Positions 22,721 to 41,136 of a stretch of DNA of 50,585 nt are shown here, in pieces. Under the pieces are notes generated by a model that was not told the origin of the DNA, made no database searches, and saw only the letters and a list, made by a program, of their open reading frames with translations. The first letter of the stretch is position 1. Every line of letters begins with the position of its first letter. The translations under genes were made by a program, and so were the position numbers. Origin of the DNA: a virus; IMG/VR virus record IMGVR_UViG_3300025695_000017, positions 1 through 50,585 of that record; one strand, written 5' to 3'.

Positions 22721-23539
22721 ATGAAAATAGGAATTATAGGACAGGGGTTTGTTGGTAATGCAGTTTATCAAAAGTTTAAAGAACATTATAATGTATTGAC
22801 TTACGATTTGGATGAAACTAAATGTAACTCCACATTTGAAGATGTATCTAAATGTGATTATGTATTTACCTGCTTACCCACTCCTATGAATTCTGATGGT
22901 AGTTGTAATACTAATATCGTAGAAGATGTAATCAAACAAATTGATGAGGTTGGTATAACCAAAGGGATTGTTGTTAAATCAACTATTACACCTGGCACTA
23001 CTCAAAGTTGGAATGATACATACAACACAAACATTGTATTCAACCCAGAGTTCTTAACCGAACGAAACGCGGTAAAGGATTACGAAAATCAGAATAGGAT
23101 TATATTAGGAGGACCAAGACCAACAACAACTTACCTTAAACGAATATTCTCAAATGTATTCCCAAAAGCACATATAGTAAAAACGGATTCAACTCATGCT
23201 GAGATGGTAAAGTATTTAACAAATACATTCTTAGCAACTAAAGTATCATTCGCTAATGAGATGTATCAGATTTGTGAGAAGTTGAATATAGATTATGATA
23301 AGGTAGTAGAATATTCAACCTTTGATGATAGGTTAGGTAAATCACATTGGAATGTACCAGGACCTGATGGTGATTTTGGATATGGTGGACATTGTTTTCC
23401 AAAGGATGTTAATGCACTAATTCATTTAGCTGATGAGTTGGGATTATATCCAACTATGTTAATGGCTACTAATCGTAAAAATGATGTAGTACGAAAAAAT
23501 AGGGATTGGGAAGGTATGAAAGGTAGAGCAGTTACTTAG
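22721..23539 (+). CDS. Nucleotide-sugar (UDP-glucose type) dehydrogenase, short form
   Basis: The 272-residue protein oxidises a nucleotide sugar to its uronic acid if the family function is retained. The N-terminal Rossmann motif is G7-Q-G-F-V-G12. Next come CLPTPMNSDGSCNT, VVKSTITPGTT and FNPEFLTERNAVKDY, all family hallmarks, then AEMVKYLTNTFLATKVSFAN. The catalytic Cys is C225 in GYGGHCFPKD. Typical enzymes have about 390-450 residues; this one ends after the central helical domain and lacks the C-terminal UDP-binding domain. No continuation is visible in another frame. Such short forms may act as dimers with altered specificity or on GDP/UDP sugars; the substrate is unknown. It starts two bases after the fusion nuclease. 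Confidence 0.88.
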   Translation: MKIGIIGQGFVGNAVYQKFKEHYNVLTYDLDETKCNSTFEDVSKCDYVFTCLPTPMNSDGSCNTNIVEDVIKQIDEVGITKGIVVKSTITPGTTQSWNDTYNTNIVFNPEFLTERNAVKDYENQNRIILGGPRPTTTYLKRIFSNVFPKAHIVKTDSTHAEMVKYLTNTFLATKVSFANEMYQICEKLNIDYDKVVEYSTFDDRLGKSHWNVPGPDGDFGYGGHCFPKDVNALIHLADELGLYPTMLMATNRKNDVVRKNRDWEGMKGRAVT

Positions 23540-23796: not shown

Positions 23797-26700
23797 ATGG
23801 CAAGAATTAAGAAGTACTCACCCGAACAAAAGTTATCATCATTTCAGACATTTTTAGTAGATGATAATCCCAATTCAGATTATTTTAGAATAACCGAATT
23901 TAAAGATACATTTACTGGTGGTAAAAACGGATTCCTCATAGAGGGTTCGGAATATCTAAAGGAATCAACTGAGATTAAGATTGAAATTTTAGATGTAGAA
24001 GGTAATACTGTATATTACGAACCAGGTAATGGTATACCAGAATACTATGAGGGTATATCTAAATTAGTAGCTGTTTATGTATATAACGATACTCCAATTG
24101 GTTTAGGTAAAATTACCATTTTAGGTGAACTTAAAGAGTATGATGAAAATGGTGTAAAGCGAACAATTCCAGATGAATGGAAGGGAGCTTATAATGTTAA
24201 GTGGGAACGAACATTTCAGATAAATAAACTACTTGCAAATGAGGATAAGGTTAGATTTTATCGTAGGCCTGATGTATCTATTGATGAATTTGTAAAACCT
24301 ATATTTAGTGGGAATCCACCAACAGTCACTCAGACTGGTTCAGTGAGTGGTATACCATTAGCTCCATCTGAAAACCAAAACCTATCTAATTTTTCTTTAC
24401 CAACATCATATAGATTGAATATAGATAGTGGTGATAAATGGACTGGTTCCATAGTAGGACAACCTATTAATTTTACCAACCTAAACTATACTCCAATTGT
24501 TGATGATGTGGTTAATGGAACTGAATTAATAGTATCACCACCCTATACTGAAAATGATTTAGCTAAATCATTTAATAATGAAGAATACTCAGTAACATTC
24601 CCATATATCGAAGGTGTAACTGATTTAGCAACTGCTTTAACTGGTTCATTTGCTAAAATTAGTATTACTGATATGAAAACTTTTGTAGGTGATGCTGCAA
24701 GGGTAAAGGTATTTAGACGGTCTCAATCAAATTTAACTGATTTTGAATTCGTACAAGAAATTCAGTTGGAATCAAATGAATTATTAAAAGATATTACTAC
24801 TTTTGATAAAAAGGAAGAGAATTATGGTATCTTTACTGAAGATATTTTAGATTCATATTGGATTACATCATCAAATGATTTTAATATTTCATTTAATCAA
24901 GACTTTTTATATAATTCAGTTAATTTAGATTCCACTCCAACAAATTACTTTTTTACATCGGAAAGCTTTTCTATTGGAAGTGGTGTTGAGTATTCTTTGG
25001 ATTTTAATGTTAGGAAGGAAACAACTGACCCTAATGCATATTTAAAGGTATTTTTAAGTGGTTCTAATAATGATAAAGGTGTAGAACAACAAATAATAAA
25101 TATACCAGCATCAACAACAATACTTCAGAAAACAAACTTTAGTGAAAATATAGTTGCAAATGATTTTGATAATGCTAAATTATATTTTGAAGTAAGTGGT
25201 AGTGATTGGTATGTAAATAATGTAAGTTTAAAGGCATCACAAGAAACTTCATTTTCACCTGATGAGATTACCTTTATTCAACAAGTTCCAAAAACATTAG
25301 TATCTGAAACATTTGATTATCGTTTTGAGTTTTATGATATCAATAATAACTACATACCAGTTAGAGTAGAGGAAACGAAAACATTTACTGGTGGTAATAC
25401 AAACTTGTTTAATAAGAGTTTGGATATAACACCAGACAATTTATACTTCTCATTCGATTCAGCATCAAATCCTGCAAACGCAGTTCCACCATTTGTAATC
25501 AACTTTGATGTGGAAACTAATTTGGTTACAGGTTCAATTACCTATACATCTGGTGCATATGATTTCTTCGGAAATGAAATATCACAATCTGAATATGCTG
25601 GTGGTATCTATCCTGGTTACTTAACTAATTGGGATGTTGATGGGGGTAGACAGCCATTCCTAAGAGTGCAAGATTTTACTGGTTCTAGAGATGATATATC
25701 CGTTCAATTTATAAGATATAATGCTGAAGTTGAGGGTGTAACCGATACATTTGTTATTACCAGAGTTGAAGATGGTAAGGGTGGTGTAAGTTTTGAGATA
25801 GTACCATTCAGAGGTACTCAAATTAAAAACAAAGAAGATAAGACATTAGAGATACAAGCGGTAAGGGTTGATGGTATCAATCGTATTGATTTACAAAGTG
25901 GATTGGCTAGAGGTTTCTCTGATGCTAAACTACATTTATTATCATCATCATTAGATGGTACCCAAACTTATGTTTCACTTTCCCAAGCGATTACTGACCC
26001 TAACTTTATAGAAGGTGTAAGTGCTGGTACAACTGGTAGTGGTGAGATTGATTACAACGCAATTTTTACAAGAGATTCTATTGATAATGAGTTGACGGTT
26101 TATCTTATGGATGGACCTACATCTGAATCAATTTTAACATCACAAATCCTAACCGATTTGAAAGATGGTTTGAATAATGGTATTGTTACTTCAACAACTG
26201 AACAATTTAATATAAAGTACAAACCCAGAGAAATTAATGATTTCAACCCATTACAATCAATAGTAACTGCATCGTTCCAACGAAGAGGTACAACATTAAA
26301 TCCCTTATCGGCTAGTTTGTTGATTATACCATCTTCTTCAAAGGAACCTAAAACCGAATTACCACATTATTATATGTTCTATGAAACTGGGGCATTTGAT
26401 AGTACAATTACATTATCGGTAACTGATTTTGCTGGAAATGTAATTGATAATGGTGTACCTGGAAATGGTATTCCATATTATTCGGCAATTGATACAAAGC
26501 AATTAAACTTAGAGTTTACATATACTGAGCCAATTACATCAGCATCCGTAACTGCAAATAAATCATTCTTCATTACACCTGATGGTTTACCTGGGCAAGA
26601 TTCAATTGTAATTGATATAGACCCTCAACCAGTTTCATTGGGTTCAAATCACAAAGGTGAGGTTTATAATTACGCATTAGCAAATACTGATATACAATTA

Positions 26701-29700
26701 ACACAAGGTGATTTATTCTTAATAAATACTGCAAGTGGCGATCCTGGTACGTTTACCACCCGTTCAATAGTTACAACTAATATTGAGTATGGGACATTGG
26801 TTGGTGATTCAACCACAACAATGAGTTTGGCTGGATTCGAAACAATGTCAGCACTAAGTGCTAGTGTTAGATATGATTTTGATATCTACCCATACTTTAC
26901 ATCATCATTGGTAACTGCAAGTAGAACTCAAAAGTTCACTAAGGTAGTTGATGGTGGTGGGCCTATTGAAGTTACAATAGAACCAATGGCAGTTGCATTA
27001 AATGCTGATGAGATTGGATATGTTTCCAATTATTCAAGTGCAACAACTGAAGTATTTATAAAACAAAATGATGAGTTCTTCTTCTATGATGAATTTGATG
27101 GTGGTAGACCTGGTACATTTGTAACGCAATCTATAACACAACGAAATATACAATTTTCAGAAGTTTCATCTTCATTTAGGGATTTAATTGCATCTGGTAG
27201 TGTATCTTCATCTGATGGAGAAATATTACATTTTAAAGGATTTGGGGGATTGGCAAATAATCAACCATCTGGTAGTATTACATATAAATTTAAGGTTTAT
27301 CCTTATTCATTGACTGCTGGTGTAGGTGGTGTTCCTAGAATAGTTTCAGCAACTCAAACATTTTCAAAAGTAAGTGATGGAACTGCTGCAAGAAAGGTTA
27401 GTTTAATAGCTAGTAGTGATACTGTTATTTATGATGGTGATGGGCTTAAAGTTGCACCGGTAGGTGATGTTGATTTATCTGCAATTGCTATAAATGTAAC
27501 TGGTTCTGCTTTTTTTAAATTCTTAAATGATGATGGTTCCACAATACAAGCATCATCGACAGATAGCACAACTACTATTGGTGATTTACCATCTACTGGT
27601 TCAGCAAAAACATTTACAGTTGAATTACGAGATGGTAATCCTAATGGAGTGGTGGTTGATACCGATACTGTAACTATATCTGGTATATCGGAGGGTTCAA
27701 CTGCATATTCGGCAGTAGTAACAAATCCAGCATCTTCTATAACTGTTGAAGTTGATGGTACAACATTTGTTGAAAACACAAGTACATTAATACGAGCATA
27801 TAAGGGTGGGACTGAATTACAATATGTTGAGGAATATGATGAAGCGGCATTAGACCCAATTACATTCTTACCAATCGGTACATTTGGACAATTTTCAGCA
27901 TCTATACATGATATATCACCATTCCTAACACATAATGATGGTAGGTTGTTGGAAACTTCTGGTGAATTATATGCTAGTTCGTCTGGTATATCGGATTGGA
28001 CCGAACCTCAATCAAATACACAGGGATTCATTGTATATAAACTTGACTTTGAGAATGGTAGAGGTGAGCAATTTGTACAACAATCATTCTCAGCTGTTTT
28101 TGAAGGAGCAACTGGGCCTGGTATTGTAATGAGGGGTGAGTGGACCGGTAGTATTGCATACATATTTGACCAAGGTAACCAAAGGAGAGATGCTGTACTT
28201 AGGAACGTTGATGGGACAACTCATTATTGGGCAACAACACAATTAATACCATCTGGTTCAGAATACACCGATGGTGATGATGAATACACACCAGAACCAC
28301 AACTACCATCACAAACAAATCCTGATGGTACTTATGTTGAGGGAACTATTGATACTAATGGTTGGGAGTATTTGGGTCAGCAAGAACTATTCGTTGCAGC
28401 TAAGATTGCAATATTTGATGAATCGTTTGTAAAAAATACAATTAATGTAGGTGAACCAACAACCGATTATGATACCAATCCCCAAATTGCGATTGTTGGT
28501 GGAACCGATGAACCTTATATATCGATAGGGCAGAGTATTCAAGGATATGGACAACAGGGTGCATATATTGGTGTAACCAACAATGGAGGACCAACTGGAA
28601 CCGCAGGTACATCAGGTCTATTATCATTATCAGGTGACCCAACGGAACCATCATATAATTCATTAAAGTGGGATGGTCAAACACTTTTAATCAGAGGTGC
28701 AATTAGACAAACTGCAGCAGGTTCAATAGAACCACAATTAAGAGGTGATTGGACAGATGGTGCATATTATAATACTGATGATTCGGTTTTATATCTAAAT
28801 CAAAGTTTTAGAGCAAGTGCACCACATACAGCATCTCAGGGTGATGGAGTTTTTGGGGAACCAAACATTGGAGATGTATGGGATGCATCGTCTGGTGTTG
28901 GTAAAACGGCAACATTAGCAGCATCTACTTTTGTTATTGAGTTTGACCAAGATGGAAATAATCCATCTCCAAGTAGTATCAACTTAATTGCATCATCATC
29001 AAACTTTGTAAATCCTTTCTTTAAATTTACAGGCGGTGGTACATTCCATAATAATGATGTTTCCTTTTACGATGGTAATGATGTTGAAAATCATTTATCA
29101 AGTAGTATAGATTTAAGTTCAGCAACTATATCTGATATGCCTCTACAATTTAGATTAGGTGTTTCTGATGCTGACCAAGTTGAAGTAGTTAGTGATGTGA
29201 TTAACATATTTGGGGTTAAACCAGGTTCCGATACTGTACCAAATTATTTCATTACTCCAATCGCTGGTGGTACTCAAATAAAAAATAGTAGTGGTACTAT
29301 TACACTACAAGTTCAAAAAGCAGATATTAGTGGAATAACTGATATAACATCTGGTACTGATGCACAAATTTATGATGGTGGAACTTTATTAGCCGTACAA
29401 AGTGGTGTTAGTGATGCTGGTAATGGGGTAGTTTATAATCCAAACATTACATCGGATTTTATTACTGGAACTAAAACACTTTTACTAAAAGATAATGGTG
29501 GTACGGTATTAGATTCTATAACACTATTGGATGTAACCGATGGTTTAGGTGGTGGTTCATTTATAGCACCTAACTTAAAAACAAATAGAAATACATCAGT
29601 TACTCCGAACACATTTAGTCCAAGTTACTTATCCGCAACCGCATCATTCTACGATACATCTGGAACTGAATACACTCAAAGTGTTACTATTACTCCATCG

Positions 29701-32700
29701 TTTAGTGTTGGTGTGGATAGAATGGCTGTATCAACTGGTGTTGGTGATACTACAAATATTACGATTACAGCTGGTGATGGTGATGGTGGAACCATTACAT
29801 TAGGTGGAGCATCGGTACCTACAAAAGATACTGTATTAACCGCAATATTTACTGACCCTGCAACTGGACAGACAAACACAATAAATGAAACATTCTATAT
29901 TGTATCTGATGGTGTGGATGGTGTTGATGCAATAACTGTAATTAATACAAACCAAGCACACACACTTCCAGCTTCATCTGCTGGTGTGGTTTCATCATAT
30001 ACTGATAGTGGTACGGTGATACGAGTATTTGAAGGTGTACTCGAACTATACTACACAAACGGAACACCAAGTGATGGTGAATTTACAATATCAGCTACAC
30101 AAAGCCCATCAGGTGTTATGAATACACCATCTATCGATGTAGAAGAAGCAGGAGAAGAACCAGCTGAAGTTGCTGATTTTACTTCAATGGATAATGCACA
30201 AGATTCGGTTATTGTAACGTATACCATAACCGGTCTGAGAAGTGGTGGGGCATCATTTACATCAACCACAACACAAACTTTAACTAAAGTAAAAGATGGT
30301 ACGGATGGTGAAGATGGTGGTGTAGTATATGCTGGTGAATGGAAACTAACACTATCCGATGGTACAACACCAACTATAAGTGATAAGGTGGTATATTTGG
30401 CTGAAGATAATTTAAAGTATGTGACTAAGTATAATAATAGTTATTATATATGTGCAACAACACATAGATATGCGGGTGCTTGGGATGGTAGTGAAGATTA
30501 CCTTGAAGGTGATGTAGTATTGGAAAGTGGTACTTACTATCGTGCTGGGCAAGATATTCTTGCGGGGGATTTCTTTCCGGGTGACCCTGAATGGCCATCG
30601 GTTGGTTCATCAATTGAACCTGGAACTTGGACAGCTGGGTGGGAATCCTTCGGAGCAGAGTTTACTTCTGTGGCAACTGATATTCTTTTTGCACAAGATG
30701 TTTATGCTGATAGAACTATAAATATTGGTTCAAATGGTTCAAGTGCAGTTATTCAATTAAACGCAGATACATCTAATTCAAATCAAAACCCATTTTTATC
30801 TATTGGACAAAATGGGACAGAAGGATATGGTAATCCTGGTATGTTCTTTGGATTTGATAGTGGTTCCGAAAAACTTTCTATTTCTGGTTCTGGTGGTGCA
30901 CTAACTTTTGATGGTAATTTATTTAATTATAGTGGAACAATTAGTGCGGGTACATTAAATGGTATGACTTTAATTGGAGGTACAATTAGTGTTCCCAATG
31001 CAACAAACCCACTATTCTCAGTAGATTCCGAAGGTAACATGTCTGCACAAGATGCAAACATATCTGGTTCATTTAATATAGAATCTGGTAAAATTGGTAA
31101 TTGGGTAATTGATGATATAGCTAATGGTGGGTTTTTACGAGATGTTGATAATAGGATAGTACTAAATCCAACGGATAAGAAAATTCAATTATTTAATCAA
31201 TCAAATGAACTAAAGGCAAAAATTAATGCGGATGACACACTTTCTAACATTGCTGGTGGTAATCTAAATGTTTCCGGTCTTAATACTACAAGTATAGCTG
31301 CACCATCAGGCCCATCATTAACAAGTGCTGGGTTCAGTACAATAACGGGTACATATCAATTCGGTAATGAAGTTTCGGTAACGGTTCAAGATGCGGGGGA
31401 GTATTCAATTAGTGGATTATTTGATTATACTTCGATACCAATACCAAATCTTACTACATCCGGACTTTCAAATGTATCAACTAGTACTGGAAGTCCAAAT
31501 GGATATATAAATGTAGGTTCTGGTGCACCATCACCATACTCATTTGATGGATATTACTCAAGTGGAATTTCACCTAGATATGCATATCAATATTTTTATT
31601 TAGAGATTGTAGATGCGGGTGGAACAGTTATACACAGAGAACAAATTTCTTATGCTTACGCAAGGAGTGGATATAGTTTGGGTAACTATTATACACACCC
31701 AAATCCATATGGATCTGTAACCAACACTGGGTGGCAATATCAGAGTGGGTATAGTTCAGCTGCAAACTCATTTTCATATTCAAGTATTAGTGCAAATCAT
31801 AGCTTTGAAGTAGACCTAACTCCACAAACTTATAAATTTAGGTATAGTACTGTAATGAAAAATAGAAATGGAGTTGCATCTTACTTAAATGGTCAAACAA
31901 CTACACCAACTTATACTTATTACAGTCACACAAAGAGTGGTCTTAGTTTTTCAACAAGTGAATTAGATTCTTCAGTTACTGCCGCAGCACCTGCAAACTT
32001 TATTGAATTATCGGGTGGGGGGTTCCAAGCTGCAACAAATTCTAACCAGTTTGTTAAGATATTTAGAAATTCTCCAACTTCTTATAATAGTACTCTTATA
32101 CAGGCTAAAGGTGGTTATGTGAACTTACAACAATCTGATAAAGGAGATAAGTCTTTAGATGTTCAAGGAACATCAACATTTGGCGGCCAGGTTAATATTG
32201 GTGTTAATTGGGGTTCCTCCTTTGATAATGGAAAAGGTTATACTGTTTTGAAAAGTCCTGTTTTTCAATATAAAACTTACAGTTCTGGAGGAGCCATAAC
32301 CTCTCCACTATTTATTGATGTACGGGAAGCTAGTTTTTTTAGGTTAAGAGCTACTTCTACTTCTAATAGATACTTTGAATTACCACATAAACAATTTGCA
32401 AGTAGTACTGCTGTTCCATTTAGAGAAAGAGACAGGGACAATTCAAATGAGATTTATGGTGTTGATGATTTTGAAGTGGGGCATTTAGCAATACTATTTA
32501 ATTACAACTATGATGATGATGCTTGTTATATTGCTGGAATATCTGGTAGAGCTGATGATAATGGGTGGTATACACTAAATGGGGGTAGATGTATTATGGT
32601 TGTTTATGATAAATATGCACTCCAGCATGGTGGTAGTTCACTTAATACCGATGCAGAGGGTGGTTGGATAATCGTAAATGGAGATACATCTACGGTAAAC

Positions 32701-32712
32701 TCATGGGCTTAA
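23797..32712 (+). CDS. Giant tail fibre / receptor-binding protein
   Basis: The 2971-residue protein is the largest gene here. Residues 1-~170 look like a baseplate-attachment domain. A Ser/Thr/Gly-rich series of beta domains follows. Three related modules begin near residues 935 (SIVIDIDPQPVSLG), 1056 (VTIEPMAVALNADEIG) and 2045 (AITVINTNQAHTLPAS). Another pair is near 665 and 1815, sharing GTQIKN. GEW/GDW modules near 1441, 1647 and 2176 (GIVMRGEWTGS, RGDWTDGAYY, YAGEWKL) resemble CBM5/12-type carbohydrate-binding elements. A block GWE..., INVG/INIG..., SIGQ...GYG is duplicated near 1525 and 2285. The C-terminus (about 2800-2971) is a distinct tip domain. Context: followed by a fibre assembly chaperone-like gene. 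The fibre role is well supported; the receptor is unknown. Confidence 0.85.
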   Translation: MARIKKYSPEQKLSSFQTFLVDDNPNSDYFRITEFKDTFTGGKNGFLIEGSEYLKESTEIKIEILDVEGNTVYYEPGNGIPEYYEGISKLVAVYVYNDTPIGLGKITILGELKEYDENGVKRTIPDEWKGAYNVKWERTFQINKLLANEDKVRFYRRPDVSIDEFVKPIFSGNPPTVTQTGSVSGIPLAPSENQNLSNFSLPTSYRLNIDSGDKWTGSIVGQPINFTNLNYTPIVDDVVNGTELIVSPPYTENDLAKSFNNEEYSVTFPYIEGVTDLATALTGSFAKISITDMKTFVGDAARVKVFRRSQSNLTDFEFVQEIQLESNELLKDITTFDKKEENYGIFTEDILDSYWITSSNDFNISFNQDFLYNSVNLDSTPTNYFFTSESFSIGSGVEYSLDFNVRKETTDPNAYLKVFLSGSNNDKGVEQQIINIPASTTILQKTNFSENIVANDFDNAKLYFEVSGSDWYVNNVSLKASQETSFSPDEITFIQQVPKTLVSETFDYRFEFYDINNNYIPVRVEETKTFTGGNTNLFNKSLDITPDNLYFSFDSASNPANAVPPFVINFDVETNLVTGSITYTSGAYDFFGNEISQSEYAGGIYPGYLTNWDVDGGRQPFLRVQDFTGSRDDISVQFIRYNAEVEGVTDTFVITRVEDGKGGVSFEIVPFRGTQIKNKEDKTLEIQAVRVDGINRIDLQSGLARGFSDAKLHLLSSSLDGTQTYVSLSQAITDPNFIEGVSAGTTGSGEIDYNAIFTRDSIDNELTVYLMDGPTSESILTSQILTDLKDGLNNGIVTSTTEQFNIKYKPREINDFNPLQSIVTASFQRRGTTLNPLSASLLIIPSSSKEPKTELPHYYMFYETGAFDSTITLSVTDFAGNVIDNGVPGNGIPYYSAIDTKQLNLEFTYTEPITSASVTANKSFFITPDGLPGQDSIVIDIDPQPVSLGSNHKGEVYNYALANTDIQLTQGDLFLINTASGDPGTFTTRSIVTTNIEYGTLVGDSTTTMSLAGFETMSALSASVRYDFDIYPYFTSSLVTASRTQKFTKVVDGGGPIEVTIEPMAVALNADEIGYVSNYSSATTEVFIKQNDEFFFYDEFDGGRPGTFVTQSITQRNIQFSEVSSSFRDLIASGSVSSSDGEILHFKGFGGLANNQPSGSITYKFKVYPYSLTAGVGGVPRIVSATQTFSKVSDGTAARKVSLIASSDTVIYDGDGLKVAPVGDVDLSAIAINVTGSAFFKFLNDDGSTIQASSTDSTTTIGDLPSTGSAKTFTVELRDGNPNGVVVDTDTVTISGISEGSTAYSAVVTNPASSITVEVDGTTFVENTSTLIRAYKGGTELQYVEEYDEAALDPITFLPIGTFGQFSASIHDISPFLTHNDGRLLETSGELYASSSGISDWTEPQSNTQGFIVYKLDFENGRGEQFVQQSFSAVFEGATGPGIVMRGEWTGSIAYIFDQGNQRRDAVLRNVDGTTHYWATTQLIPSGSEYTDGDDEYTPEPQLPSQTNPDGTYVEGTIDTNGWEYLGQQELFVAAKIAIFDESFVKNTINVGEPTTDYDTNPQIAIVGGTDEPYISIGQSIQGYGQQGAYIGVTNNGGPTGTAGTSGLLSLSGDPTEPSYNSLKWDGQTLLIRGAIRQTAAGSIEPQLRGDWTDGAYYNTDDSVLYLNQSFRASAPHTASQGDGVFGEPNIGDVWDASSGVGKTATLAASTFVIEFDQDGNNPSPSSINLIASSSNFVNPFFKFTGGGTFHNNDVSFYDGNDVENHLSSSIDLSSATISDMPLQFRLGVSDADQVEVVSDVINIFGVKPGSDTVPNYFITPIAGGTQIKNSSGTITLQVQKADISGITDITSGTDAQIYDGGTLLAVQSGVSDAGNGVVYNPNITSDFITGTKTLLLKDNGGTVLDSITLLDVTDGLGGGSFIAPNLKTNRNTSVTPNTFSPSYLSATASFYDTSGTEYTQSVTITPSFSVGVDRMAVSTGVGDTTNITITAGDGDGGTITLGGASVPTKDTVLTAIFTDPATGQTNTINETFYIVSDGVDGVDAITVINTNQAHTLPASSAGVVSSYTDSGTVIRVFEGVLELYYTNGTPSDGEFTISATQSPSGVMNTPSIDVEEAGEEPAEVADFTSMDNAQDSVIVTYTITGLRSGGASFTSTTTQTLTKVKDGTDGEDGGVVYAGEWKLTLSDGTTPTISDKVVYLAEDNLKYVTKYNNSYYICATTHRYAGAWDGSEDYLEGDVVLESGTYYRAGQDILAGDFFPGDPEWPSVGSSIEPGTWTAGWESFGAEFTSVATDILFAQDVYADRTINIGSNGSSAVIQLNADTSNSNQNPFLSIGQNGTEGYGNPGMFFGFDSGSEKLSISGSGGALTFDGNLFNYSGTISAGTLNGMTLIGGTISVPNATNPLFSVDSEGNMSAQDANISGSFNIESGKIGNWVIDDIANGGFLRDVDNRIVLNPTDKKIQLFNQSNELKAKINADDTLSNIAGGNLNVSGLNTTSIAAPSGPSLTSAGFSTITGTYQFGNEVSVTVQDAGEYSISGLFDYTSIPIPNLTTSGLSNVSTSTGSPNGYINVGSGAPSPYSFDGYYSSGISPRYAYQYFYLEIVDAGGTVIHREQISYAYARSGYSLGNYYTHPNPYGSVTNTGWQYQSGYSSAANSFSYSSISANHSFEVDLTPQTYKFRYSTVMKNRNGVASYLNGQTTTPTYTYYSHTKSGLSFSTSELDSSVTAAAPANFIELSGGGFQAATNSNQFVKIFRNSPTSYNSTLIQAKGGYVNLQQSDKGDKSLDVQGTSTFGGQVNIGVNWGSSFDNGKGYTVLKSPVFQYKTYSSGGAITSPLFIDVREASFFRLRATSTSNRYFELPHKQFASSTAVPFRERDRDNSNEIYGVDDFEVGHLAILFNYNYDDDACYIAGISGRADDNGWYTLNGGRCIMVVYDKYALQHGGSSLNTDAEGGWIIVNGDTSTVNSWA

Positions 32713-33542: not shown

Positions 33543-34112
33543 ATGGTAACACATAATATGAGTTATATTTACAAATATGGTGATATTGAAGTTTACAATA
33601 AATTCCAACAACCAACTAAGCAAATATTTCATAAATGGAGAAGTGAATTTCTTCAAAATAACAATTTAGATAACTATAATATTTTGTTTATGGGAAATGC
33701 TGCGGAGATTCTATTTGGTATTTCAAAACTACAAACCTATGATATCGATATTATTTTAAGTGGTGAAATTGATTCATATGAAAACTTATCCAAATTAATG
33801 AATTCAGCATTTTCAATTGGTTTAAAATATAATTTGTGTATCGATATATTTCACCTTGATATAAATGTTTTTGAAATAGAATGGTGGAGTTCTTATAATA
33901 AGATACGTTTGTATGATAGACTTACAAATTCCAATGGTAATGTATATCGTATCCCTTATAAAATAGAAGATTTACCATTTGGGTTACATAAATTTGGAGA
34001 ACCCAATATTATTGGTAAATCCCATAGAAAGCACTTAGATAGAATCAAATCCGGTCAATATCTTGGATTACGATTTGATTTAAAAACTATGAGATTAATT
34101 TCGTTTAATTAG
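33543..34112 (+). CDS. Possible nucleotidyltransferase-fold protein
   Basis: The 189-residue protein (or 184 if it starts at ATG 33558) carries a pattern reminiscent of the pol-beta/MNT nucleotidyltransferase fold: MGNAAEILFG, then YDIDIILSG (a D-x-D pair), then a helix (ENLSKLMNSAFSIGL), then CIDIFHLDINVF with a possible third Asp. The C-terminal half is basic (GKSHRKHLDRIKSGQYLG). The spacing is compatible with the fold but the first motif is not the canonical GSxxxG. Such proteins can act as tRNA-modifying toxins, antitoxins or nucleotidyl transferases; I cannot choose. It stands alone between the fibre unit and the glycosylation island. Confidence 0.5.
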   Translation: MVTHNMSYIYKYGDIEVYNKFQQPTKQIFHKWRSEFLQNNNLDNYNILFMGNAAEILFGISKLQTYDIDIILSGEIDSYENLSKLMNSAFSIGLKYNLCIDIFHLDINVFEIEWWSSYNKIRLYDRLTNSNGNVYRIPYKIEDLPFGLHKFGEPNIIGKSHRKHLDRIKSGQYLGLRFDLKTMRLISFN

Positions 34113-34148: not shown

Positions 34149-34421
34149 ATGGAAAAAAAGACAGAAGCTTTAGATAAGGAAATTATTGAAAAGCTATCAA
34201 AAATTCAGAATGAGCAAGATAGTATGGTAATTGCTTTAGGGCAGGTTGCTGTACAACGTAGACAATTTCAGCAAAATCTTGATGAATTAAGTAAGAAAGA
34301 GAATGAGTTTGGTGCACGATTGGATAAATCTATAAATGAACTCAATATTGAATTGGCTGAGTTGGATAAAAAATACCCAAACGGACAGATTGATTTAGAA
34401 AATGGTACGATAATTTATTAA
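34149..34421 (+). CDS. Coiled-coil protein, left-flank paralogue of the glycosylation island
   Basis: The 90-residue protein is almost entirely heptad-repeat coiled coil (for example QNLDELSKKENEFGARLDKS), ending with YPNGQIDLENGTIIY. The gene at 38992 encodes a longer protein that aligns over the full length of this one and ends its homologous part with YPRGQLNLEEGTITY. Both have their own late-type motif. The two copies flank the sugar genes 34495-38940. Function unknown; it may be an assembly or scaffold-like factor. Confidence 0.75.
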   Translation: MEKKTEALDKEIIEKLSKIQNEQDSMVIALGQVAVQRRQFQQNLDELSKKENEFGARLDKSINELNIELAELDKKYPNGQIDLENGTIIY

Positions 34422-34494: not shown

Positions 34495-36672
34495 ATGTCC
34501 AATAAGAAAAAATTAATATATGTAGCATCTCACCTATCAACTGGTGGGATGCCACAATACCTTCTTAAACAAATTCAAATATTCAATAAAGAATTTGATA
34601 TACAAGTCGTTGAATATAATGACCATAGTGGTGGTGTATTTGTAGTTCAAAAGAACCAAATAAACGATTTGGTAAAACTACATACTCTTTATCATAATAA
34701 GGGGGAAACTCTTATTGATATCATAAAAACGGAAGAGCCGGATATCATCCACTTTACTGAAATTCCCGAACACTTTATAGAACACTCTACATTAGATACT
34801 ATCTTTGGAAACGAAAATAGAAAGTATCATATAGTTTGTTCAACACATGGTTCATTCACCAATCCAGATGAAATTCGATATCAACCTGATAGATATGTTT
34901 TAGTATCTGAATGGAGTAGAAGAAAGTTCGAACATTTGGGAGTTGATACTAAAGTATGGGAATATCCAATTGAAAATATTAAATACAATAAAGATGCTGC
35001 AAAAGAAGAATTGGGATTTGAAAAAGATTGGAAGCATGTATTGATGGTTGGATTATTTTCTGAAGGTAAAAATCAGAGTGAGATATTTGATGTAGCTAGA
35101 TTATTAGAAAAGTATAAAATAAAATTTCACTTTGTTGGTAACCAAGCTTCAAACTTCGAAGATTATTGGGGACCTTTAATGAAATTTAAACCTTCCAATT
35201 GTATTATACATGGTGAAAGAACCGATACTGATAAATTCTACAAAGCATCGGATATGTTCTACTTCAGTTCAAAGTTGGAATTAAATCCACTTTCAATCAA
35301 AGAAGCATTATCATATGGATTACCATCCATATTCAGAAAATTACACACTTATTTGGATAAGTATGATGATAACGAATTGGTTACTTATATTAATGATGAT
35401 ATCCATCAAACCAAACATCGCATACTAACAAAGTTAAAGCCTGAGTTTAATGAAATACCTGGTTGGTTCTCATATGAGGAATTTTATACGGATGTAGTTG
35501 ATAAGTTACCAAATAACTCAAACATCGTAGAGGTGGGTGCTTGGTTTGGGAAATCAACTAACTTTATGGCTAATAAAATTAAAGATAGTGGTAAGAATGT
35601 AAACTTTACAACAGTTGATACTTTTAAAGGTTCTCCTACCGAAGATATTCATAACAATACATTAAGTGTATTTGATAATGATATCTATTCTGAGTTTATG
35701 GATTCAGCTATACTGTTGGATAATTTAGATACTATAAATGTAATTAAAGATACATCCGTTAACGCTAAAGATTCTTTCATCAACAATTCATTAGATTTCA
35801 TAATGATTGATGCCGGTCATACCTATGATGATGTTAAGAGTGATATCAATGCATGGTTTCATAAAGTAAAGCAAGGAGGTATTATTTCTGGTGATGATTA
35901 CATCCCAGTATTTCAAGGTGTAATAGATGCTGTAAATGAATATTTTTATGGACAGATTAGTAGAACTAACACAGGTTGGTTTAGAAAGAAACCAAAGATT
36001 CAGATTCTACATTTAATGACCAGACCCGATGATGTGAGAGAGAAATTGAGTTCAACATCATTAAAACAATTACAAAGATTGGGATTTGATTATATTCCAA
36101 TGGTAAACGAAGTTTATGAAGGTGAAGTTCCATCCGAATTTTGTAGAAGGCCTGATATGATAACCACATCACCTACCTATATTGGTGAACATGGAGTTGG
36201 TACATTGACGAAAAGGCATTATGGGTGTTTCACATCTCATATAAATGCATTGAAGAATATAGATACTGATAATTACGATTACACTCTTATATTTGAGGCT
36301 GATGCATTTATCTATTCATCTTTAAGGGATTTTGCTGAGATAATATACAAGGCATGTTTTATATCTGAACGAGATAATGTTCCTTATATTTCATTTGCCA
36401 ATAATCCATCTTGGCAACGTTGGGATGTGGATACAAACTTTGCTAAAACTGATTTCAATCAGGATTGGGCACATTGTTACCTAATTCCAAATAGAGATAA
36501 ACAATGGTATATGGATAGAATTGAAGATACTCCATGGGATGGGTATGATATTTGGCTAAATGAGATATTCTATCACAATAGAGATAAAGTTAGATATACT
36601 ACCCATTATCCATTTTGTAAGCAAGCCGAAGGTATTTCTTTATTAGATAATTTAAATAAAAGTTGGAAGTGA
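34495..36672 (+). CDS. Three-domain glycosyltransferase-methyltransferase-glycosyltransferase (GT4 / MT24-like / GT25-like)
   Basis: The 725-residue protein joins three enzyme domains. Residues 1-~310 are a GT4/GT-B glycosyltransferase (ASHLSTGGMPQYLLKQI near the N-terminus; LNPLSIKEALSYGLPSIF near 262, the nucleotide-sugar-binding E-x7-E region). Residues ~325-490 are a class I methyltransferase (IVEVGAWFGKSTNF near 345; FIMIDAGHTYDDV near 433). Residues ~500-725 are GT25-like, as in LPS/collagen-type transferases (GCFTSHINALKNI near 576; IFEADAF near 600, where an E-A-D replaces the usual E-D-D). It is the first gene of the island and overlaps the next start (GTGA). Substrates are unknown; a role in building a methylated glycan is inferred. 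Confidence 0.85.
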   Translation: MSNKKKLIYVASHLSTGGMPQYLLKQIQIFNKEFDIQVVEYNDHSGGVFVVQKNQINDLVKLHTLYHNKGETLIDIIKTEEPDIIHFTEIPEHFIEHSTLDTIFGNENRKYHIVCSTHGSFTNPDEIRYQPDRYVLVSEWSRRKFEHLGVDTKVWEYPIENIKYNKDAAKEELGFEKDWKHVLMVGLFSEGKNQSEIFDVARLLEKYKIKFHFVGNQASNFEDYWGPLMKFKPSNCIIHGERTDTDKFYKASDMFYFSSKLELNPLSIKEALSYGLPSIFRKLHTYLDKYDDNELVTYINDDIHQTKHRILTKLKPEFNEIPGWFSYEEFYTDVVDKLPNNSNIVEVGAWFGKSTNFMANKIKDSGKNVNFTTVDTFKGSPTEDIHNNTLSVFDNDIYSEFMDSAILLDNLDTINVIKDTSVNAKDSFINNSLDFIMIDAGHTYDDVKSDINAWFHKVKQGGIISGDDYIPVFQGVIDAVNEYFYGQISRTNTGWFRKKPKIQILHLMTRPDDVREKLSSTSLKQLQRLGFDYIPMVNEVYEGEVPSEFCRRPDMITTSPTYIGEHGVGTLTKRHYGCFTSHINALKNIDTDNYDYTLIFEADAFIYSSLRDFAEIIYKACFISERDNVPYISFANNPSWQRWDVDTNFAKTDFNQDWAHCYLIPNRDKQWYMDRIEDTPWDGYDIWLNEIFYHNRDKVRYTTHYPFCKQAEGISLLDNLNKSWK

Positions 36673-37811
36673 TTTACAAAAAAATAAAACGAAATCAAAA
36701 TAACATTCTTAATATTAAAAATAGAGTTTCCATATCATATGTATATGGGCCTAAAGTAGAAATATTAGGAAATGTTGATGAAACTTATAGAGTAGAATTC
36801 ATTGATAAAGCAACCAACGTTATTCAGTTTGAAACTGAAATAAAAAACAATTGTTGGGCATCTTGTAATATCCGATACTTTGTGGATTGGAGAATCCGAG
36901 TTTGGAATGGTACTGAATTATTCCATGAAGAAGATTATAATGCAACCGATATGAGAGTATATGTTGCATTGGATTCGAAAGCATTGGGTGATACATTAGC
37001 ATGGTTTCCATATGTTGAGGAATTTGGTAAGAAACATAATTGTAAGATGGTAACATCTACATTCCATAACGAAATGCTAATCCAACAATATCCGAATATT
37101 GAATTTATAAACCCTGGTGAAATTGCAGAAAACTTATACGCTATGTATGGGTTGGGATTATTTTACAACGAAGATGGTTCGGTAAATTTACATAAAAACC
37201 GAAGAGACCCTAAGGGATTATCAATGCAGGAAATGGCTACTGATATCTTAGGATTGGAATTTGTAGAAGTAAAACCAAAGTTGGGTAAACGAAATGTTGA
37301 AAAGGATGATAAACTAATTACCATTGCAATTCACGGAACCGCTCAATCAAAGTATTGGAATAACCCAACTGGTTGGCAAGAAGTAGTAGATTGGTTAACG
37401 GGTAGGGGATATCGAATCAGATTACTATCCAAAGAACAAACTGGGTTTATGGGTAACTTTGAACCAACTGGTATTGAAAAACATCCATGGGGGCCTTTGG
37501 AGTTGGTTATGGATGAAATGGTTAAATCAAAAGCATTCATTGGTATTGGTAGTGGGTTGAGTTGGTTAAGCTGGGGATTGGGAACTAAAACAGTTCTCAT
37601 AAGTGGATTTTCATACGATTGGGCAGAGATGAGTGATTGTGTACGAATCAGTTCACCAAAAGATATATGTGGTGGTTGCTTCAATAGATTAAAATTAGAT
37701 GCTGGTGATTGGAATTGGTGTCCAGACCATAAAGGTACTAATAGGCAATTTGAGTGTACTAAATCTATCACTGGTGAGATGGTAATTAAAGAATTAGAAA
37801 AGTTTTTATAA
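36669..37811 (+). CDS. Autotransporter-type O-heptosyltransferase (BAHT/TibC-like, GT9-related)
   Basis: The 380-residue protein begins at GTG 36669, overlapping the previous TGA by 4 bases; an in-frame TTG at 36663 is less likely. The centre has DSKALGDTLAWFPYVEEF, the GT9/heptosyltransferase N-lobe motif, and TIAIHGTAQSKYWNNPTGWQ and AFIGIGSGLSWLSWGLG in the C-lobe. Four Cys near the C-terminus are arranged C-x2-C-x13-C-x11-C (334, 337, 351, 363). This resembles the iron-binding finger of the TibC family, which transfers heptose from ADP-heptose onto Ser of beta-helical surface proteins. The next two genes encode the two halves of ADP-heptose synthase, which supports the call. The acceptor is unknown. 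Confidence 0.85.
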   Translation: MIYKKIKRNQNNILNIKNRVSISYVYGPKVEILGNVDETYRVEFIDKATNVIQFETEIKNNCWASCNIRYFVDWRIRVWNGTELFHEEDYNATDMRVYVALDSKALGDTLAWFPYVEEFGKKHNCKMVTSTFHNEMLIQQYPNIEFINPGEIAENLYAMYGLGLFYNEDGSVNLHKNRRDPKGLSMQEMATDILGLEFVEVKPKLGKRNVEKDDKLITIAIHGTAQSKYWNNPTGWQEVVDWLTGRGYRIRLLSKEQTGFMGNFEPTGIEKHPWGPLELVMDEMVKSKAFIGIGSGLSWLSWGLGTKTVLISGFSYDWAEMSDCVRISSPKDICGGCFNRLKLDAGDWNWCPDHKGTNRQFECTKSITGEMVIKELEKFL

Positions 37812-38195
37812 ATGAAAGTTTGGATTAACGGATGTTTTGATGTTTTACATTATGGACATTTTCAATTAATTTCTCATGCTAAATCATTGGGTGGTGAGCT
37901 AAAAATTGGAATAGATTCCGATAAAAGAGTGAAAGAATCTAAAGGAGATAGTAGACCATTCCATACTGAGAATCAGCGAATATTCAACTTACTTCAAATT
38001 GAAGGTGTGAATAGTGTTGTAGTATTTGATTCTGATAAAGAACTATCTGATTTAATTAAAGATTACAAACCTGATATTTTTGTAATTGGTGATGAATATA
38101 AGGATAGGGGAATTATTGGTAGAAAGCATGCTAAACGAATTGAATACTTTCCAAAAGTGGAAGGATTCTCAACAACTGGATTATTAGATGAATAG
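37812..38195 (+). CDS. rfaE2: ADP-heptose synthase, adenylyltransferase half (HldE C-terminal domain-like)
   Basis: The 127-residue protein transfers AMP to heptose-1-phosphate to give ADP-heptose. The nucleotidyltransferase core shows NGCFDVLHYGH (HxGH at 13-16), SDKRVKESKGDSRP (K44-P49, a signature of the HldE/RfaE C-terminal domain), DIFVIGDEY and GFSTTGLL. The length is about that of the free-standing domain. TagD/GCT-type cytidylyltransferases share the HxGH motif, but the KGDSRP motif and the adjacent HldE-like kinase favour ADP-heptose. It begins right after the heptosyltransferase stop (TAA, ATG) and overlaps the kinase gene by 8 bases. Confidence 0.87.
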   Translation: MKVWINGCFDVLHYGHFQLISHAKSLGGELKIGIDSDKRVKESKGDSRPFHTENQRIFNLLQIEGVNSVVVFDSDKELSDLIKDYKPDIFVIGDEYKDRGIIGRKHAKRIEYFPKVEGFSTTGLLDE

Positions 38196-38940
38196 AGTAT
38201 TAGTTATAGGAGAAAGGTGTGATGATATCTTCATTTATGGTGATACTCCCCGTTTATCACCCGAAGGACCGGCACCAGTATTTATTCCAACGAGAGAAGT
38301 TTACAATGGTGGGATGGGTGAAAATGTGATGAATAATCTACTATCTTTAAAAATTGATGTAGATTTCGAACATCAGAAATCACCAATTACAAAGACAAGA
38401 CATATTCACGAATCATCGAATACCTTATTGTTAAGAATTGATGAAGATGGAAATACAGATAATATAGGTGATAGATTACCTAAAATAGATTTTTGGGAAT
38501 ATCAAATGGTAGTAATTTCAGATTACAACAAAGGTTTCCTATCTGAAGAAGATATTGCTTATATAGCATATAAACACCCAAACACAATTTGTGATACCAA
38601 AAAGAAGTTGGGTGATTGGTGTAAAGATTTACGATTCATAAAGCTTAATCGTACTGAGTTCAATAATAATAAAGAATTTATTCAAGAAAACGATTGGATT
38701 TTAGAAAAGTTGATAATTACATTAGATAAGGATGGATGTATGTACAATGGTACATCATATCCAACCGAACAAGTAGAGATTATGGATATCTCAGGAGCTG
38801 GTGATACATTCGTAGCGGGATTTGTGAAGATGTTCTTAGATACCGAAGATATTCCAAAATCAATACAATATGCTAATCGTTGTTCAGCGCAGGTTGTACA
38901 AAAACGAGGTGTAACAACAATAGATTACGAAAACTTATAA
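38188..38940 (+). CDS. rfaE1: Heptose-7-phosphate kinase half of HldE (PfkB family)
   Basis: The 250-residue protein phosphorylates heptose-7-phosphate at C1 in ADP-heptose synthesis. The N-terminal strand VLVIGERCDDIFIYG is followed by PRLSPEGPAPVF (21-32), a hallmark of HldE kinases, and GGMGENVMNNL. The C-terminal PfkB signature is DISGAGDTFVAGF, with G203-A-G-D206 (anion hole and catalytic base). At 250 residues it is shorter than E. coli HldE-N (about 318) by loss of part of the middle, but core motifs are intact. The start overlaps the adenylyltransferase by 8 bases (ATGAATAG), indicating translational coupling and matched expression. Confidence 0.88.
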   Translation: MNRVLVIGERCDDIFIYGDTPRLSPEGPAPVFIPTREVYNGGMGENVMNNLLSLKIDVDFEHQKSPITKTRHIHESSNTLLLRIDEDGNTDNIGDRLPKIDFWEYQMVVISDYNKGFLSEEDIAYIAYKHPNTICDTKKKLGDWCKDLRFIKLNRTEFNNNKEFIQENDWILEKLIITLDKDGCMYNGTSYPTEQVEIMDISGAGDTFVAGFVKMFLDTEDIPKSIQYANRCSAQVVQKRGVTTIDYENL

Positions 38941-38991: not shown

Positions 38992-39390
38992 ATGGCAAAG
39001 GAACAAAAAAATCAAATCGAATTGGTAACAGTTGAGTTATCTGAGGATAAACTCAATGAGATTAAAGAGTACAATTCACAACTGAATCAGATAATGACTC
39101 AGATTGGTCAGTTACATATCAGAAGAAACGAATTAACTTCTGAGTTGGAAAAGATTGAAGCAGCATTCGGTGAAGCTGAAAGTGGGTTTACTGAAACTAA
39201 CTCTGAAATGAGAAAAGAGTTGAATAAACTTGAAAGAGATTACCCAAGAGGTCAATTGAATCTTGAAGAAGGTACAATTACTTACAACAAAGCATATAAA
39301 GAGCAGTTGGAGAAGCAGGTTCAACAACAGCAAAATCCAAACGGAATCGCTGGTGGTGATACAGTTGATGCTCCATTCTCTAAGGTGTAA
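38992..39390 (+). CDS. Coiled-coil protein, right-flank paralogue of the glycosylation island
   Basis: The 132-residue protein is paralogous to the 90-residue product of 34149-34421. They align over the shorter protein's whole length: IGQLHIRRNELTSELEKI corresponds to LGQVAVQRRQFQQNLDEL, and the C-terminal YPRGQLNLEEGTITY matches. This copy has an N-terminal extension (about 15 residues) and a Gln/Asn-rich C-terminal tail ending DAPFSKV. It is a coiled coil throughout. It has its own late motif. Role unknown, perhaps structural; the duplication suggests that the island was inserted or arose between two copies. Confidence 0.75.
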   Translation: MAKEQKNQIELVTVELSEDKLNEIKEYNSQLNQIMTQIGQLHIRRNELTSELEKIEAAFGEAESGFTETNSEMRKELNKLERDYPRGQLNLEEGTITYNKAYKEQLEKQVQQQQNPNGIAGGDTVDAPFSKV

Positions 39391-39447: not shown

Positions 39448-41136
39448 ATGAACGAATTATCTCAATTTTTAGTAGAGAGTATATTAGGGGAAGCGGACAG
39501 TGTAGACAACAAAGTTGTAGTTTACTCTGGCCGCTTTCAACCGTTTCATAAGGGGCATTACGCAACATATTCTCACTTAGTAAAAAAGTTTGGAAAGGAA
39601 AATGTTTTTATCGGAACATCCAACAAAACCGATAATAAGAAATCACCTTTCAACTTTAAAGAGAAAAAGCAAATAATGACAACGATGTTTGGTGTTCCAT
39701 CAAACAAAATTGTTGAAGTTAAGAATCCATATGTACCAACTGAGGTACTAAAGAAATTCGATAAAGATACTACATCATTCATCACAGTTGTTGGTAAGAA
39801 AGATGCAAATAGATTAGGTGGTAAGTTCTTTACCCCTTACAAAGATAACTTAGATTTTGAAGGATATGAGGATAGGGGGTATGTTTATATAGCTCCCCAA
39901 CAATCCAATCCAATAAGTGGAACCGATGTTCGTATGGGATTACGAAAAGGTTCTGATGCGGATAAGAAAGAGTTCTTTACTAAAAAGGCTTATGGTAAGT
40001 TCAATCCAAAAATATTTAAATTCATAGCAGGTAAACTATCACAACTACCAGAAATAACTTCGGAAAATATTTGGATTCCAAAACACATATTAGAAAATTG
40101 GATAGTTGATAATACTGATTTAATAAATGAAGTTACTACTACAATGGGTAGAGATTCAGTAGATGATGGACCAAACTATATCTATCCAAATTTCAATACA
40201 TTTAATAAGGTTTCTCAAAAAAGAGCAGAGGAAATTGGATACACTGTTTTATCACAAATTATGAGTGATGAACTTACTGATATTGATGACCATCCAATAT
40301 ATCCAAAAGGACCTATAAAAGCAGTAACCCCATTTCCTGCGGGTGTTGCTGGTAAAACCACATCTACTAACCAAAAAGATTTCTATGGTTCTGAGGCTTA
40401 TAATAAGTGGTTTAAACATATAGCTAAGATAGTTGGTATAGTTGGATATTCTTTCGTTGATTACATTGATTTAAATATCGATAAAACTCAATCACTAAGA
40501 GATTTAGATAGTGAGGGTGATGACGTTGGAAATACTTTAAAAGAAGATATCAACCTTCCAGTAAATGTTGGAGATACTATCCTAACAGGTAGATTTAAAA
40601 ACAAAAAGACAGTTGTTAAAACCATTGGTAAGGATGAGTATGGGATGCCAACTATCAATGGTAGAAAGGTTGTAAACTTTCGAATTGTAAGTGAAGGTGT
40701 AAAAGTTCAACTCAACGAAATTCCAATGGGAGACCTTCAAAAGATTGATACATTTGCTGATAAGCAATTAAAACCAGTGGATGTGGTTCTAACTGGTAAA
40801 CATTTCTTCGATAGATTAAATGACCCAAGAAACGGAAAAGAAGTAACAAACGCTGAGTTGATTGGTTTCTTTAAAAGATTGGGTAAAAAGAAAAAAGAAT
40901 TTGTAAACTTCCTTAATCAATATAATCAGATTGTAGCAAAGGATAATAGAACTAATATTAATATTCCATTTATGAAACAAGCGAATAAAGTAATCGCTAA
41001 AACCATAATGAGAAAAGATGACTTTAAAACATCAGACCCGGAATATAAATTTGAAAAATTAGAAAAGGAAAAGTTGAAATACAATGAGCCATACGCTTTA
41101 AGTGGTGGTATCTCTGAATCAACTAATAAAAAATAA
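39448..41136 (+). CDS. Prohead-targeted polyprotein with N-terminal NMN-adenylyltransferase-like domain
   Basis: The 562-residue protein starts MNELSQFLVESILGEADS, similar to T4 capsid-targeting peptides and containing LVE (8-10) and LGE (13-15), which fit the prohead protease rule [L/I]xE. Residues ~20-205 are a nucleotidyltransferase (VVYSGRFQPFHKGHYATY with HxGH; NPISGTDVRMGL, the ISSTxxR-type motif), as in NMN adenylyltransferase. A further I-N-E site at 226-228 separates it from a middle region, an L-N-E site at 422-424 from a C-terminal domain (HFFDRLNDPRNGKEVTNAEL), and an L-K-E at 364-366 is internal. The middle contains VGDTILTGRFKNKKTVVK. The processing model is inferred; the NTase motifs are clear. 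Confidence 0.78.
   Translation: MNELSQFLVESILGEADSVDNKVVVYSGRFQPFHKGHYATYSHLVKKFGKENVFIGTSNKTDNKKSPFNFKEKKQIMTTMFGVPSNKIVEVKNPYVPTEVLKKFDKDTTSFITVVGKKDANRLGGKFFTPYKDNLDFEGYEDRGYVYIAPQQSNPISGTDVRMGLRKGSDADKKEFFTKKAYGKFNPKIFKFIAGKLSQLPEITSENIWIPKHILENWIVDNTDLINEVTTTMGRDSVDDGPNYIYPNFNTFNKVSQKRAEEIGYTVLSQIMSDELTDIDDHPIYPKGPIKAVTPFPAGVAGKTTSTNQKDFYGSEAYNKWFKHIAKIVGIVGYSFVDYIDLNIDKTQSLRDLDSEGDDVGNTLKEDINLPVNVGDTILTGRFKNKKTVVKTIGKDEYGMPTINGRKVVNFRIVSEGVKVQLNEIPMGDLQKIDTFADKQLKPVDVVLTGKHFFDRLNDPRNGKEVTNAELIGFFKRLGKKKKEFVNFLNQYNQIVAKDNRTNINIPFMKQANKVIAKTIMRKDDFKTSDPEYKFEKLEKEKLKYNEPYALSGGISESTNKK

Follow-up and report, generated by a model that had tools for sequence, protein, structure and literature searches.

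The subject of this analysis is a four-gene cassette in the IMG/VR virus record IMGVR_UViG_3300025695_000017, the whole of which (50,585 bases) was analysed and is referred to below as the window. A first-pass annotation, made from the sequence alone, had described these genes as tightly coupled and the phage as T4-like. Both descriptions held: the four genes are present on the same strand at the coordinates below, and the window contains matches to portal, terminase and baseplate proteins. The cassette encodes the following proteins:

34495..36672, plus strand: three-domain protein of 725 amino acids (GT4, O-methyltransferase, GT25-like), assigned from Pfam, fold matches and co-occurrence with TibC
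36669..37811, plus strand: TibC/Aah-type protein O-glycosyltransferase of the heptosyltransferase family (P0002; 380 amino acids, GTG start), assigned from TIGR04414 and the PDB structures of TibC (4rap/4rb4)
37812..38195, plus strand: HldE C-terminal-like nucleotidyltransferase of 127 amino acids, assigned from TIGR02199 as the best family, phrog_7878 and invariant residues
38188..38940, plus strand: short HldE N-terminal-like PfkB sugar kinase of 250 amino acids, assigned from TIGR02198, phrog_8133, the HldA fold and a GAGDTF motif

The start of the TibC-like gene was placed at the GTG codon at 36669, on the basis of the in-frame GTGA overlap and the conserved 'MIY' start of its relatives. 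Its stop at 37811 abuts the nucleotidyltransferase start at 37812, and the nucleotidyltransferase and kinase genes overlap by 8 bp, so that all three couplings first described were recovered. The cassette is located between fibre/chaperone genes and terminase/portal genes.

P0002 scored 269.2 bits against the autotransporter strand-loop-strand O-heptosyltransferase family TIGR04414 (curated cut-off 200), and could be aligned with TibC (4rap/4rb4) across nearly its whole length (E = 2.5e-49). Heptosyl transfer to Ser/Thr and a dodecameric ring are further features of this family. The key residues of TibC are Asp110 (catalytic base), Thr226 and Lys230 (β-phosphate), Trp305 (heptose contact), Arg286 (adenine contact, required for activity), Pro300 and the iron-finger cysteines Cys339/342/358/370 (PMC4358343). 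The equivalents of Asp110, Thr226, Lys230 and Trp305 are kept in 81/81 cassette copies, and the four iron-finger cysteines (C336, C339, C353 and C365) are invariant. Judged by homology, the first-pass assignment of P0002 to the TibC/BAHT-type heptosyltransferase family, as a putative TibC-like transferase, is well supported. Pro300 is replaced by Gly in all 81 copies. In a phylogenetic analysis the cassette enzymes formed a single clade (100/100), beside TibC homologues from Methylococcaceae and other viruses and apart from canonical TibC. Like the TibC/Aah enzymes, then, P0002 has near full-length homology and the catalytic Asp, Thr/Lys, Trp and four-Cys set, and in its wider branch a repetitive surface protein rich in Ser/Thr is encoded beside the transferase gene or close to it. 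It differs from them in being phage-borne, in its separate clade, in its substitutions at Arg286 and Pro300, in its coupling or fusion to GT4, GT25 and methyltransferase domains, and in its partners, where Gly-Thr/Ser-Ser triplet repeats take the place of strand-loop-strand β-helix repeats.

To identify related loci, 2.9 million viral contigs were scanned with P0002, yielding 366 relatives, of which 80 were kept for gene-order counts; these include near-identical copies, and the counts are of contigs, not of events. All four genes were found in the same order in 46/80 relatives, a recurrence far beyond chance, and one for which the first-pass annotation had proposed to search other phage genomes. 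The GT4/methyltransferase/GT25 and TibC genes alone were present in 29/80, and a nucleotidyltransferase without a kinase followed TibC in 3–4 of the 80. Because four-gene loci coexist with pair-only loci in these proportions, the two transferase genes appear to be the core of the system and sugar activation an optional module.

The GT4/methyltransferase/GT25 gene accompanies TibC in the 80 loci wherever the flank is present. Its product matched the Pfam families Glycos_transf_1 (40.7 bits) and Methyltransf_24 (65.4 bits) over their cut-offs and Glyco_transf_25 just below (22.5 bits, cut-off 24). An AlphaFold (AF2) model was obtained with moderate confidence (mean predicted local distance difference test score, pLDDT, 75; predicted template modelling score 0.59), and its Foldseek matches included BshA (GT4), the sugar O-methyltransferases MeT1/SpnH and, among the top hits, the human collagen galactosyltransferase COLGALT1 (GT25), consistent with the three domains originally proposed. 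In several TibC homologues elsewhere, the transferase is part of a fusion with GT4, GT25 or methyltransferase domains. Viral contig L208 encodes a 1602-amino-acid GT4-GT25-TibC-FkbM methyltransferase chain beside an open reading frame (ORF) with 189 triplets, and in Microcystis phage Mel-JY01 TibC forms the end of a 1227-amino-acid fusion annotated as an FkbM methyltransferase.

Examination of TibC neighbours in the genome collection revealed proteins in which Gly-[Thr/Ser/Ala]-[Ser/Thr/Ala] triplets abound; several of them have an apparent signal peptide. In 14/19 loci a triplet-repeat ORF was found near TibC, in most of them no more than 1.5 kb away and in many no more than 200 bp. All triplet-pattern matches of four genomes (G020–G023), and 5/6 of those of a fifth (G015), adjoin TibC. 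The canonical Pantoea and Paraburkholderia enzymes have no triplets nearby, and that of Pantoea adjoins an AIDA-repeat protein. Two of the 19 loci, from a Rickettsiaceae (L093) and a Bacteroidetes (L096) metagenome-assembled genome, are on phage-looking contigs that carry tail-fibre and structural neighbours together with TibC fusions.

Among phage records, the triplet pattern was present in 7/11 that bear TibC (one of the seven, G010, rests on a single match), compared to 0/9 T4-like, cyanophage or huge-phage records chosen otherwise. Up to 1278 matches were counted in the huge phage LR756501. In a reverse test, viral contigs were picked only for triplet repeats, and TibC was detected within the ~9 kb examined in 23/214 of them, a sample estimate of the rate. 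The corresponding figure for Gly-Pro-Ala-repeat control contigs was 0/120 (Fisher p = 2e-5), this control being another kind of repeat, partly probably in non-coding frames, and not a random phage set. Several TibC genes abut triplet ORFs by 0–50 bp, for example in contigs L208, L249, L217, L383 and L467. In Mel-JY01 (L003, PP395634.1), whose TibC fusion lies close to a triplet-repeat ORF, positions 3–2723 form a 906-amino-acid plus-strand frame full of Gly-Thr-Ser/Gly-Ser-Ser triplets, over which the record annotates a minus-strand gene (410–1969); the plus-strand frame looks like the real fibre gene.

Close relatives of the window encode triplet fibres of their own. Giant fibres with 326 and 94 triplets occur in G003, and with 278 and 102 triplets in G005. 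They begin 37–40 kb downstream of the cassette, and each set has beside it a homologue of the tail-fibre assembly chaperone encoded in the window. In a third relative (G008), triplet matches lie ~46 kb downstream of the cassette. The tail-fibre frames in these stretches (L120–L121 and L124; G003 21853–49313, G005 1–22260) are 3100–4600 amino acids long, unusually large for T4-like phages.

For the nucleotidyltransferase, the HldE C-terminal domain was the best family (TIGR02199, 100.7 bits), compared to 58.9 bits for TagD (TIGR01518). The best family for the kinase was the HldE N-terminal domain (TIGR02198, 104.5 bits), although the protein is ~65 residues shorter than this 315-position model. 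Its AF2 model (pLDDT 87) gave the heptose-7-phosphate kinase HldA as all seven of its best PDB fold matches, and the GAGDTF motif, containing the GAGD anion hole, is invariant among the kinase copies. The HldE-like families first named for the two enzymes are thus their best-scoring families, though with scores below the curated cut-offs. The cassette differs from HldE/HldA systems in having two separate short proteins and in lacking GmhA and GmhB.

In the known pathway, GmhA makes heptose-7-phosphate, the HldE kinase converts it to heptose-1,7-bisphosphate, and GmhB removes the 7-phosphate before adenylylation. A search of nine IMG relatives, all contigs of 61–271 kb that are fragments or of uncertain completeness, gave neither GmhA (TIGR00441) nor GmhB (TIGR00213). 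The proposal that the phage enzymes alone would take heptose-7-phosphate to ADP-heptose (adenosine diphosphate heptose) leaves the GmhB step between kinase and adenylyltransferase unfilled, and the description of the system as self-contained was too strong. Since GmhA and GmhB were not found in relatives, the phage would boost donor synthesis but leave it incomplete. Other heptose enzymes are encoded by two huge phages that bear TibC, namely an HldE-N-type kinase by LR756501 (306 bits against a cut-off of 345) and GmhA by LR756504 (251 bits, over its cut-off), which supports heptose as the sugar.

From the gene order, the enzyme families, the conserved active-site residues, the linkage of the TibC branch to triplet proteins and the triplet fibres of close relatives, we infer, with a probability of about 0.6, that in the infected cell the cassette serves as a module for glycosylating the phage's own tail fibres. 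A sugar, most likely heptose from ADP-heptose, would be transferred by the TibC-like enzyme to Ser/Thr within the collagen-like Gly-[Thr/Ser]-[Ser/Thr/Ala] triplet stretches of giant fibres, whose genes lie at other places in the genome. The coupled three-domain protein would then extend and cap this first sugar, using its GT4, GT25-like and O-methyltransferase domains. The kinase and nucleotidyltransferase would provide an optional boost to donor supply from heptose-7-phosphate, reliant on host GmhA and GmhB. More broadly, we consider it an even bet that bacteria, phages and huge phages share a previously unrecognised TibC-type branch that is the dedicated glycosyltransferase of collagen-like Gly-[Thr/Ser]-[Ser/Thr/Ala] repeat proteins, with which T4-like phages such as this one hyperglycosylate giant fibres at hundreds of sites using a sugar that is partly phage-made.

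Several observations weigh against fibre glycosylation by this route. The kinase and nucleotidyltransferase genes are missing in 29/80 relatives, indicating that the phage's own donor synthesis is dispensable. Both enzymes score under their curated cut-offs (104.5 against 345 bits for the kinase and 100.7 against 181.5 bits for the nucleotidyltransferase). The residue equivalent to Arg286 is Val in 81/81 cassette copies; Arg286 is retained in the canonical reference enzymes and lost in many relatives of the wider branch. Given this replacement, ADP specificity of P0002 is not assured and must be regarded as not proven. The four triplet-negative TibC-bearing records are LR756504 and three fragments of 46–61 kb. 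No triplet-rich fibre was found within the window; because the window ends 11.6 kb past the cassette, a triplet fibre of this lineage, if any, would lie outside the fragment.

The protein acceptor proposed in the first-pass annotation was a different one:

23797..32712, plus strand: tail-fibre-like protein of 2971 amino acids, assessed by its serine plus threonine content and triplet counts

Glycosylation might be directed at this fibre, or at another virion protein, instead of triplet fibres. The gene adjoins the cassette, its product is indeed Ser/Thr-rich (20.8% compared to 14.6% in the other ORFs), and short Gly-Thr-Ala/Ser stretches occur in it (GPTGTAGTS at residue 1598) and in its relatives. 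However, it contains only two Gly-[T/S/A]-[T/S/A] triplets in runs, compared to 94–326 in the other fibres of relatives, and the genome-wide association of TibC is with triplet repeats. Strand-loop-strand repeats (TIGR04415) were not found in this fibre, nor in 12 TibC-bearing phage records and 6 genomes with a related TibC. The 2971-amino-acid protein, called an obvious candidate acceptor in the first-pass annotation, was demoted as main acceptor after the triplet counts and is probably not one; a non-triplet acceptor in general is unlikely. In the main rival reading, the enzymes would act during infection on host lipopolysaccharide (LPS) or on other glycans of the cell surface, keeping competing phages from adsorbing (superinfection exclusion). 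Homologues of the kinase (phrog_8133) and nucleotidyltransferase (phrog_7878), 35–46% identical, are present in the sugar clusters of the cyanophages P-SSM2, S-SM2 and S-CAM3 with an annotated phosphoheptose isomerase, nucleotide-sugar epimerase and carbamoyltransferase. Such clusters are usually read as modifying the host surface (PMC7824862; PMC7029224), and LPS enzymes are known from the GT4 and GT25 families. Unlike the cassette, these clusters contain no TibC by tblastn and no triplet-pattern matches. The anchor enzyme of the cassette scores over the TibC curated cut-off, the acceptors known for its family are proteins (PMC4358343), its usual neighbours in bacteria and phages are triplet-repeat proteins, and the cassette is placed between fibre/chaperone and terminase/portal genes, all of which makes a host-surface role unlikely. 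Protein glycosylation, the first choice of the earlier annotation, is better supported than host-glycan modification, but with the acceptor shifted away from the neighbouring fibre.

It is also conceivable, if improbable, that the kinase and nucleotidyltransferase make another nucleoside diphosphate sugar, or alter host ADP-heptose as a signalling or defence metabolite, and that their adjacency to the transferase is incidental. The sub-threshold HldE scores, the replaced Arg286 and the failure to find GmhA and GmhB in the searched relatives are consistent with this, as are the occurrence of the gene pair without TibC in cyanophages and of TibC without the pair in the 29 relatives noted above. 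However, HldE domains are the best family for each enzyme, the pair directly follows the transferase in 46/80 relatives, and the heptose enzymes of the two TibC-bearing huge phages again point to heptose.

Phage glycosyltransferases are routinely annotated as modifiers of host LPS or DNA. Fibre glycosylation by the cassette would instead represent a newly recognised route of viral self-glycosylation in large water-dwelling phages, with a concrete enzyme–acceptor pair behind the glycosylation of aquatic phage virions and a reason for the presence of heptose enzymes in phages. A large branch of the TibC homologues would also gain an acceptor rule that can be tested, namely Gly-Thr/Ser-Ser triplets. 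Sugars on the fibres could affect how well the phage adsorbs, how stable it is and whether it escapes recognition by bacteria. A comparable arrangement is found in Bacillus BclA, a glycosylated collagen-like spore-surface protein with O-glycans within Gly-X-X triplets; unlike the phage cassette, that system uses other transferases and other sugars, on a bacterial spore surface. Virion proteins of mycobacteriophages also carry glycans, which are attached to the C-terminal ends of capsid and tail-tube subunits (Freeman et al. 2023, cited in PMC12619734); the citing passage in PMC12619734 mentions no TibC-type enzyme or triplet acceptor. A literature search, weak in that most subscription journals fell outside it, gave no link of TibC-type or ADP-heptose enzymes to phage virions and no glycosylated collagen-like phage fibres.

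The closest portal proteins are those of Mel-JY01 (51%) and Flavobacterium phage immuto (47%); the cassette was not present in the examined stretch of immuto. No sequenced phage was similar at the DNA level to a 2.1-kb segment of the window. No terminator-like site was found across the cassette region. Promoter-like sites were not above the level of shuffled sequence, and an Rfam scan gave no match. The gene psbA, sought as a sign of a photosynthetic host, was not found in the TibC-bearing records. The cassette is flanked by the following features:

34149..34421, plus strand: small coiled-coil protein on the upstream flank, paralogue of 38992–39390
38992..39390, plus strand: small coiled-coil protein on the downstream flank, paralogue of 34149–34421
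39448..41136, plus strand: NMNAT/NadR-like nucleotidyltransferase with a long C-terminal part, assigned from phrog_395 and PF01467

The two coiled-coil proteins are 24% identical over 90 amino acids (E = 2e-9), and their genes are found at the same places in relatives. Both bracket the cassette in 61/80 relatives and one does in 19/80, some of these contigs being cut. The pair might be a trace of how the cassette was inserted. The NMNAT/NadR-like gene, outside the cassette, is syntenic in relatives and serves as a downstream marker of the locus. Matches to its product are split or interrupted in many relatives, which suggests insertions or a variable middle part.

Further upstream, positions 19587–22718 of the window encode a 1043-amino-acid fusion of an SbcD-like phosphoesterase and an SbcC/Rad50-like ATPase, the counterparts of which in T4 are the separate genes gp47 and gp46. 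It is followed at 22721–23539, close to the fibre, by a 272-amino-acid nucleotide-sugar dehydrogenase-like protein covering the family model in part. An ORF of 189 amino acids at 33543–34112, for which Pfam and PHROG gave no match and NCBIfam none over the cut-off, resembles by eye a small protein of the nucleotidyltransferase fold.

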